From assembly GCF_009753675.1 (NCBI RefSeq), contig NZ_WQLV01000001.1:186001-250000 (forward strand): DNA of 64,000 nucleotides, in the 5' to 3' direction. Within the stretch, counting starts at the first letter, position 1; each line of letters begins with the position of its first letter. Shown piece after piece: positions 20,388 to 47,541 of the stretch. Position numbers and translations under genes: made by a program. This stretch comes from Parasedimentitalea huanghaiensis (lineage in GTDB: Bacteria; Pseudomonadota; Alphaproteobacteria; Rhodobacterales; Rhodobacteraceae). The notes below the pieces were generated by a model. The model searched no databases. It had not been told where the DNA came from and saw nothing but the letters and a program-made list of their open reading frames with translations.

Positions 20388-20425
20388 TTAACTTTGCCTT
20401 AAGCTTGCCTTAATGCTTCGTTAAC
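20388..20425 (+). promoter_or_regulatory. Array of four CtrA half-sites (TTAA-N7-TTAA-N7-TTAA-N7-TTAAC)
   Basis: TTAA occurs at 20388, 20399, 20410 and 20421, each exactly 11 bases apart, the last followed by C. Each neighbouring pair matches the alphaproteobacterial CtrA box TTAA-N7-TTAA(C). The array ends 68 bases before the TTG start at 20493, a normal position for promoter control. CtrA itself is encoded in this window at 46822. Confidence 0.75.
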
Positions 20426-20492
20426 ACCGCCTGGAAGTCTTTAGCCCACCTTATTTTCGGTTGAGATTGCCACGAGTTTTGGAGGAAGTGCC

Positions 20493-20867
20493 TTGATTAC
20501 CAATAATTTTGATCGACGTTTGAATCGTATTCAGTGGCAGCCCAGCGCGGTTCCAACACCTGAGATTGTGGATGGCATTCTCAATGTGCGACCGATGCCG
20601 GACCTGCGAGGAGCCGCACTCACATTGTTTGGCGCTATTTTGGGTATTTTGATCGGTGTTGGATTAAAGGGCATGGTAATACCTGATACTACTTGGGGAC
20701 CAAACAGCGGCCTAATAGGAGCGATTGTTGGAACGCTCTCGCTCGCCGGACTTGGCTTATCGGTGCCGTTGGCAGCTTTAGGCGCCTACTGGCATAAGCG
20801 CCGCCCCAGGCTGCTACAATTTTCGTCGATGAATCTCCTGATGATCGTGGTGATTCTTCTAAGCTAG
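20493..20867 (+). CDS. Small membrane protein of unknown function, possible CtrA target
   Basis: I do not recognise the family. The 124-residue product begins at a TTG codon with a strong GGAGGAAG site six bases upstream. A soluble N-terminal stretch of about 40 residues is followed by three hydrophobic segments, at about 42-62, 72-97 and 110-124, separated by a YWHKRRPR basic turn. It is probably an inner-membrane protein. The upstream array of four TTAA half-sites suggests control by CtrA. In Rhodobacterales CtrA governs motility, gene transfer agent and cyclic-di-GMP genes, but nothing in the sequence ties this protein to one of them. Confidence 0.7.
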   Translation: MITNNFDRRLNRIQWQPSAVPTPEIVDGILNVRPMPDLRGAALTLFGAILGILIGVGLKGMVIPDTTWGPNSGLIGAIVGTLSLAGLGLSVPLAALGAYWHKRRPRLLQFSSMNLLMIVVILLS

Positions 20868-46719: not shown

Positions 46720-46744
46720 TCAACGAAGCATATTAACCATTATG

Positions 46745-46760
46745 GTAACTGTGCGTTAAC
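46745..46760 (+). promoter_or_regulatory. Candidate CtrA box upstream of ctrA
   Basis: GTAA-N7-TTAAC at 46745-46760 matches the CtrA consensus TTAA-N7-TTAAC except for one base and lies 62 bases before the ctrA start. Further TTAAC elements at 46734 and 46776 make the whole 102-base gap unusually rich in half-sites. This suggests autoregulation of ctrA. Confidence 0.6.
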
Positions 46761-46821
46761 CTTTTTCCATCAAGGTTAACGCAACTTGAGAAAATGAGCA
46801 TACAGGCGGAGACTTGAGAGC

Positions 46822-47541
46822 ATGCGTATACTTCTGGTGGAAGACGATCCAACAACTGCAAAAAGCATCGAGCTAATGTTGACCCACGCGAACCTGAACG
46901 TCTATGTGACGGATCTGGGTGAAGAGGGCATCGATCTGGCTAAGCTTTACGATTACGATCTGATCCTGCTTGACCTGAATTTGCCAGACATGAATGGCCA
47001 CGAAGTGCTGCGTCAGCTGCGTTTGTCGCGCATAGAAACACCCATTTTGATCCTGTCGGGTGAAGACGATACTGAGAACAAAATCAAGGGCTTCGGCTTC
47101 GGCGCTGACGACTATATGACCAAACCATTCCACCGGGAAGAACTGGTTGCACGTATCCACGCCATTATCCGTCGCTCCAAAGGTCACTCACAGTCGATCA
47201 TCAAGACCGGTAAGATCGCTGTTAATCTGGATGCGAAAACTGTCGATGTTGACGGCAAGTCCGTGCACCTGACCGGCAAAGAGTACCAGATGCTGGAGCT
47301 TCTGAGCCTTCGTAAGGGAACAACTCTGACGAAAGAAATGTTCCTGAACCATCTATATGGTGGCATGGATGAACCTGAGTTGAAAATCATCGACGTATTC
47401 ATCTGCAAGCTGCGCAAAAAATTGAGCACGGCAACCGATGGTGAAAACTACATCGAAACTGTGTGGGGCCGTGGCTATGTACTACGTGATCCACAAGAGG
47501 ACGTGATGTCCGGTGGCCCACGTTTGGCCGTTGGTGCATAA
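46822..47541 (+). CDS. ctrA: Cell-cycle response regulator CtrA
   Basis: The 239-residue OmpR-type response regulator has an N-terminal receiver with phospho-acceptor D51 in [14 protein letters not shown] and a C-terminal winged helix DNA-binding domain ([22 protein letters not shown] and [15 protein letters not shown]). The sequence is that of CtrA, the global regulator that in Rhodobacterales controls motility, gene transfer agent and related genes and is often non-essential. sciP, its inhibitor, lies directly upstream. Confidence 0.95.

Follow-up and report, generated by a model that had tools for sequence, protein, structure and literature searches.

CtrA is a cell-cycle and motility regulator of the OmpR family whose head-to-tail dimer would read adjacent TTAA half-sites at steps of one helical turn, and it is usually described as binding single dyads. 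The full site TTAA-N7-TTAA(C), its variants with a 6-bp gap and the logic by which sites are placed at -35 or -10 have been set out in several accounts (PMC6180460, PMC7200025, PMC3692519, PMC11264516). In Caulobacter, CtrA sites near -35 activate transcription and half-sites at -10 repress it (PMC6180460). Promoters with several sites are also in print. The pilA promoter of Caulobacter crescentus carries four CtrA sites, of which the -35 site drives expression and the upstream ones raise affinity but lower and delay output, and Agrobacterium ctp has six CtrA half-sites (PMC11264516). The same source describes hemE Ps of Caulobacter, where CtrA at both -35 and -10 represses cooperatively. A phage region of 1,312 bp holds 30 TTAA, and a CtrA gel shift has been carried out with an 81-bp probe from this region (PMC9437464). 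CtrA sites, their 10- and 11-bp variants and multi-site promoters are thus already known, and the premise of the original prediction, that such sites normally come as one or two boxes, needs correction in the light of these reports.

We analysed a window of 64,000 nucleotides from Parasedimentitalea huanghaiensis. Its positions 20388-20425 read as four TTAA parted by the spacers CTTTGCC, GCTTGCC and TGCTTCG and closed by a C. Re-reading the letters returned exactly the coordinates first proposed: the half-sites start at 20388, 20399, 20410 and 20421 and give three overlapping TTAA-N7-TTAA boxes (20388-20402, 20399-20413 and 20410-20424), with the final C at 20425. Half-sites 3 and 4 together with this C form the core full CtrA-type box, TTAATGCTTCGTTAAC (20410-20425, forward strand). 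Half-site 2 (20399-20402) lies 11 bp upstream of this box and half-site 1 (20388-20391) 22 bp upstream, the latter being equivalent to the -21/-22 element of relatives; neither is assigned a strand. The gene that begins at 20493 is preceded by more than one CtrA-type site, with four exact half-sites in the window. Downstream of the core, and absent from the original prediction, three half-sites with one mismatch each, TTAG at 20441, TTAT at 20451 and TTGA at 20461 (20441-20464, no strand), continue the phase of the array, and several relatives have an exact TTAA at at least one of the equivalent positions.

The core agrees with the alphaproteobacterial full site known from Caulobacter, Hyphomonas, Rhodobacter, Ruegeria and Dinoroseobacter: the same TTAA-N7-TTAAC, upstream of a gene, in a genome where ctrA is present. 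In contrast to the usual single pair, four contiguous half-sites share one register here, further ones follow in phase downstream in relatives, and CtrA binding is putative. The 10-bp steps found in relatives resemble the 6-bp gaps of flgB2p and fliI2p in R. sphaeroides (PMC6180460). With pilA the locus shares several CtrA sites per promoter, a mixture of 6- and 7-bp gaps between half-sites (here among relatives) and one site that is probably at -35; the pilA sites, however, stand apart, with distances of 31, 3 and 78 bp between them (PMC11264516), whereas the present half-sites follow one another without interruption, one per turn, and their gene does not encode a pilin. A likeness to hemE Ps exists in those relatives whose half-sites cover both -35-like and -10-like elements, but the window has only degenerate half-sites downstream, and repression is putative. 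Dense TTAA before a gene is common to our locus and the phage region, which differs in its phage origin and its length and whose helical phase is not described in the available part of that report (PMC9437464).

Since TTAA is itself AT-rich and the stretch is intergenic, an origin by chance or drift in an AT-rich run deserves consideration. The window contains three TTAA-N7-TTAA, all within the array, against a mean of 0.60 in shuffled sequence, where one of 100 shuffles reached three; four TTAA at exact 11-bp steps would be expected 5e-7 times by a naive calculation. Throughout the organism's own genome (4.86 Mb in 40 contigs), TTAA-N7-TTAA-N7-TTAA occurs exclusively at the array, as two overlapping matches, and the reversed-pattern control does not occur. 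The same pattern is found in five of the eight genomes of the genus, and in none of them outside the orthologous locus (the reversed control has one match in each of two genomes). Allowing steps of 10 or 11 bp yields 19 forward matches in these eight genomes, 17 of them at the array locus and 2 elsewhere, with 14 for the reversed-pattern control. Uniqueness in the genome and recurrence of the phased motif upstream of relatives in several genera lead us to reject chance, to which we attach next to no probability.

The presumed target gene (20493-20867, forward strand) is an open reading frame with a TTG start behind a ribosome-binding site GGAGG (20481-20485, forward strand), and encodes a putative three-helix membrane protein of 124 residues. 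The open reading frame itself was confirmed; the three membrane spans originally assigned to its product correspond to three long helices (residues 38-62, 74-99 and 105-123) that come only from a low-confidence structure model (mean pLDDT 66.5, pTM 0.43). The description of the product as one of unknown function stands, as no Pfam or NCBIfam family matches the protein at E<=0.001 (a weak BatA match has E 0.038), one of 24 members of the protein family matches PlsY (E 0.00077), and a sequence search of the PDB gave no name. Homologues of the gene were detected in 7 of 61 genomes (own and relatives), all of them Parasedimentitalea and comprising seven of the eight genus genomes; the eighth assembly is 85% complete. 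A scan of named genomes returned 21 loci with the gene, including Zongyanglinia marina, Parasedimentitalea denitrificans, Leisingera, Phaeobacter, Pseudophaeobacter and Roseobacter, and a profile search detected it in 12 of the 395 genomes of the family and in 10 of the 351 genera, three of these detections being weak. One record among these loci (L051, JAHVJD010000001.1) bears the title Nocardioides marinus, which seems mistaken given that the locus is of the roseobacter type.

The gene order in the window is ssb (reverse strand), an SLT transglycosylase gene, the 124-residue gene and a MauG-type peroxidase gene (all three forward), and a similar order was often seen in seven further loci whose open reading frames were read by eye. 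This arrangement raises the question of whether the array belongs to the transglycosylase gene that precedes it. A search with the transglycosylase found matches in 32 of the 61 genomes, and loci were obtained for 30 of these matches, of which seven belong to the genus. We fetched 23 loci from genomes in which the 124-residue gene had no detected homologue; 22 were readable (L122, with a short flank, was misread), and in none of these 22 did a phased TTAA pair follow the transglycosylase gene. We thus reject an attachment to the transglycosylase gene; the array goes with the 124-residue gene.

Conservation was assessed in the 150 bp upstream of 29 members of the gene family. This set excludes duplicate copies of genomes already represented (e.g., L004, L005, L007, L009, L067, L069, L070 and L071) and was counted after L076 and L078, remote homologues whose starts are unclear, had been set aside; upstream of these two the array is absent. 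In two of the 29, L048 and L057, the end of the region misses the start codon by a few bases. An exact TTAA-N7-TTAA is present in 26 of the 29 regions, against 3 for the control AATT-N7-AATT, and TTAA-N7-TTAAC in 24; L052, L056 and L077 have neither form. The array expected upstream of orthologues is thus found in its basic unit, but the fourfold 11-bp spacing is not shared to the same extent: the strict form occurs in five of seven Parasedimentitalea promoters, the exceptions being L047 and L049, the latter of which has lost the upstream arm, and in none of the 22 others. We therefore reject strict 11-bp spacing, present in 5 of 29 regions, as the conserved feature. An exact TTAA at the half-site 2 position (-11) is found in five of the seven Parasedimentitalea promoters and in L075; the other regions mostly have GTAA or a like tetramer there. 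Beyond the genus, the typical upstream part consists of a TTAA at -21, with GTAA or a similar tetramer between it and the core. The confinement of the fourfold form to the genus and the commoner arrangement elsewhere indicate that conservation centres on one full box (20410-20425), the core, within a looser phased array, the more frequent form being a full TTAA-N7-TTAAC box with further in-phase half-sites.

The phase of these half-sites is pronounced. The 29 regions hold 129 TTAA, compared with a mean of 20.6 and a maximum of 38 in 500 shuffles, and among 199 TTAA pairs no more than 45 bp apart, 194 are separated by whole helical turns. The preset classes of 10-11, 20-22 and 30-33 bp account for 167 of the 199 pairs (shuffle mean 0.8, largest 4), and the 40-43 bp class, which brings in 27 more, was added after the table had been seen. 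Because the shuffles keep base composition only and ignore kinship, and the 29 regions are related, these counts describe a conserved geometry and not a probability. In the 26 regions that could be anchored on the core box, exact TTAA stand at -21/-22 in 22, at -11/-10 in 7, at 0 in 24 and at +11 in 25, occupancy at 0 and +11 being partly a product of the anchoring itself; downstream they occur at +21 in 2, +31 in 11, +41 in 17, +51 in 5 and +61/62 in 5. L074 was anchored on a different pair, and L050, L061 and L077 were not anchored. In L050, L061 and L074 the half-sites occupy other turns, at steps of 9-11 or 21 bp with one 25-bp step in L074. L006 and L008 have eight in-phase TTAA over 84 bp, at 10.5 bp per turn and with one turn vacant. 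These eight, more than the window has, reach the ribosome-binding site in both relatives (positions 1393-1480 in L006).

It could be argued that the core box alone is functional and that half-sites 1 and 2 and those downstream are neutral or mere local AT-rich sequence. The core is indeed the most conserved part, and the upstream arm, missing from L049, differs in most genera. Neutral flanks, however, fit poorly with the helical phase of nearly all TTAA pairs and with the half-site at -21/-22 retained in most anchored regions, and in the five genus promoters with the strict form the TTAA columns are invariant (16 of 16) where 8 of 21 spacer columns are, in a comparison of five genomes of which two have the same sequence over the array stretch. 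We regard a core acting alone as unlikely, yet as the most serious of the competing explanations. A different use of the phase would be structural: DNA bending might be favoured by TpA steps that keep phase with the helix, such that the array would act through bending or through an AT-binding nucleoid protein of the MucR or H-NS type instead of a response regulator. Bending by itself would not lead one to expect a conserved TTAA-N7-TTAAC core with G+C spacer positions (GCC after TTAAT, G before TTAAC), and we hold this explanation to be very improbable.

A CtrA-type control region remains our preferred reading, and the position of the core is compatible with it. Read by eye, the inferred promoter (20420-20447, forward strand) consists of a -35-like GTTAAC (20420-20425) overlapped by the core box, 16 bp, and a degenerate -10-like TAGCCC (20442-20447). 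The latter hexamer is poor, and a scan for sigma-70 promoters found none; several relatives, also read by eye, carry TAATTT or TAATCT 16 bp from GTTAAC. With a probability of roughly 0.8, we consider the stretch to be the control region of the 20493 gene, a run of direct-repeat CtrA half-sites with a presumably activating core, putatively cooperative upstream half-sites and possibly repressing downstream ones. The full box, lying over the probable -35, would be the main site for CtrA~P, which is the arrangement of CtrA promoters that are activated. The contiguous half-sites 2 and 1, placed one turn and two turns upstream, would allow a second CtrA dimer to dock on the same face of the helix, which may raise affinity and sharpen the response to CtrA~P. 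Where the probable -10 and the start region lie, at least two turns downstream, further half-sites might cause repression at high CtrA~P; they are exact in many relatives and degenerate in the window, and repression would be expected where they are intact. The likeliest arrangement appears to be an activating box at -35 as the main site, assisted by an accessory dimer that would bind cooperatively upstream, with conditional repression downstream.

The presumed ligand is encoded within the same window. The ctrA gene (46822-47541, forward strand, its end placed from locus L035) matches NF045991 with 430.9 bits at a cut-off of 350. Its upstream region (46733-46822) contains TTAACCAT at 46733, a sequence given as a CtrA half-site in PMC3692519, followed by TTAA 23 and 20 bp further on, at 46756 and 46776. 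These half-sites (46733-46779, no strand) are possible autoregulatory sites of ctrA. The wider genome also favours the 7-bp gap: among TTAA pairs with gaps of N4 to N10, N7 accounts for 29 of 107 (27%), whereas in the reversed AATT control it has 83 of 572 (15%, or about one in seven), and 29 against a mean of 13 for the six other gaps, derived from the total of 107, corresponds to a Poisson tail of 9e-5, or 1e-3 without the three pairs of the array. Of the 26 other TTAA-N7-TTAA sites (loci L018-L022, L026-L032 and L079-L091), three lie inside an open reading frame of at least 90 residues, as judged from open reading frames and not from a gene caller.

Twenty proteins neighbouring these other sites were scanned, and several are of a type known to be CtrA targets. 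MotB and flagellin exceed their Pfam cut-offs; a PAS-HisKA kinase fragment has CckA as its best NCBIfam match (172.5 bits, below the whole-protein cut-off of 1000, in a locus that ends inside the gene), and a PAS_5 protein matches MopJ weakly (39.4 bits, cut-off 200). A PAS_7 protein adjoins another of the sites, and several sites are near genes with no evident CtrA link, such as a PALP enzyme, a tRNA synthetase and glutamate dehydrogenase. Within 100 bp of the 26 sites, further TTAA are in excess 19-23 bp outward (9 of 27, where about 1.4 would be expected if uniform, in a class chosen after the spacing had been looked at), for example at motB and flagellin, so that several sites share a further half-site at a distance of about two turns. 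Among the sites seen in this genome, the array at 20388-20425 is the extreme case. One of the other sites, TTAATGTCTCGTTAAC at L030:1501, is identical to the core box of L008 and lies 42 bp from a 177-residue open reading frame on the other strand that has no Pfam match.

Related bacteria offer parallels as well as a caution. In D. shibae, CtrA sites are predicted before cckA, divL, flagellar genes and ctrA (PMC4046655). The motility genes of Ruegeria KLH11 depend on CtrA yet show no clear motif and none of high similarity (PMC3692519); motif and regulon thus need not coincide. Transcriptomes of ctrA mutants have been published for P. inhibens and D. shibae (PMC12363192, PMC4046655).

The genome has 13 Trans_reg_C matches, 12 of them over the cut-off and one of them a PhoB over its own cut-off, which makes other regulators conceivable. 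Tandem direct repeats at one-turn spacing are a geometry common to the whole OmpR/PhoB family, and another member of it could bind repeats of 10-11 bp in place of CtrA. PhoB boxes, however, differ from TTAA-N7-TTAA in their core, TTAA-N7-TTAAC is the published CtrA site, and the same TTAA-N7-TTAA stands before motB, flagellin and the CckA-like kinase gene of this genome. We consider a different response regulator quite improbable. The assignment of the array as a CtrA-type site made at the outset is borne out by the exact TTAA-N7-TTAAC at 20410-20425 and its conservation upstream of orthologues, and CtrA is very probably the ligand.

What appears to be new at this locus is the continuous array on one face of the helix with turnover of its half-sites, together with the presumed target gene. 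In the literature searched, mostly outside subscription journals and in part as partial texts, we found no report of a continuous helically phased array with half-site turnover or of a target gene of the 20493 type. We speculate, tentatively and as a possibility that we would not favour, that CtrA molecules join head to tail at this locus into a long oligomer along one face of the helix. In relatives such an oligomer might occupy as many as eight half-sites, a span of 84 bp that starts upstream of -35 and reaches the ribosome-binding site. The phase and number of half-sites, and not fixed sites, would then be under selection, and the promoter of this clade-specific membrane protein could act as a steep CtrA~P sensor.

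Altogether, half-sites that differ between species and yet stay in phase amount to a natural series, with four strict half-sites, three plus degenerate ones, or up to eight. Such a series could be used to test the cooperative binding of CtrA oligomers and to ask how the number of half-sites sets the output of a promoter. The locus would moreover link an unstudied, clade-specific membrane protein to the probable motility and cell-cycle regulon of marine roseobacters.
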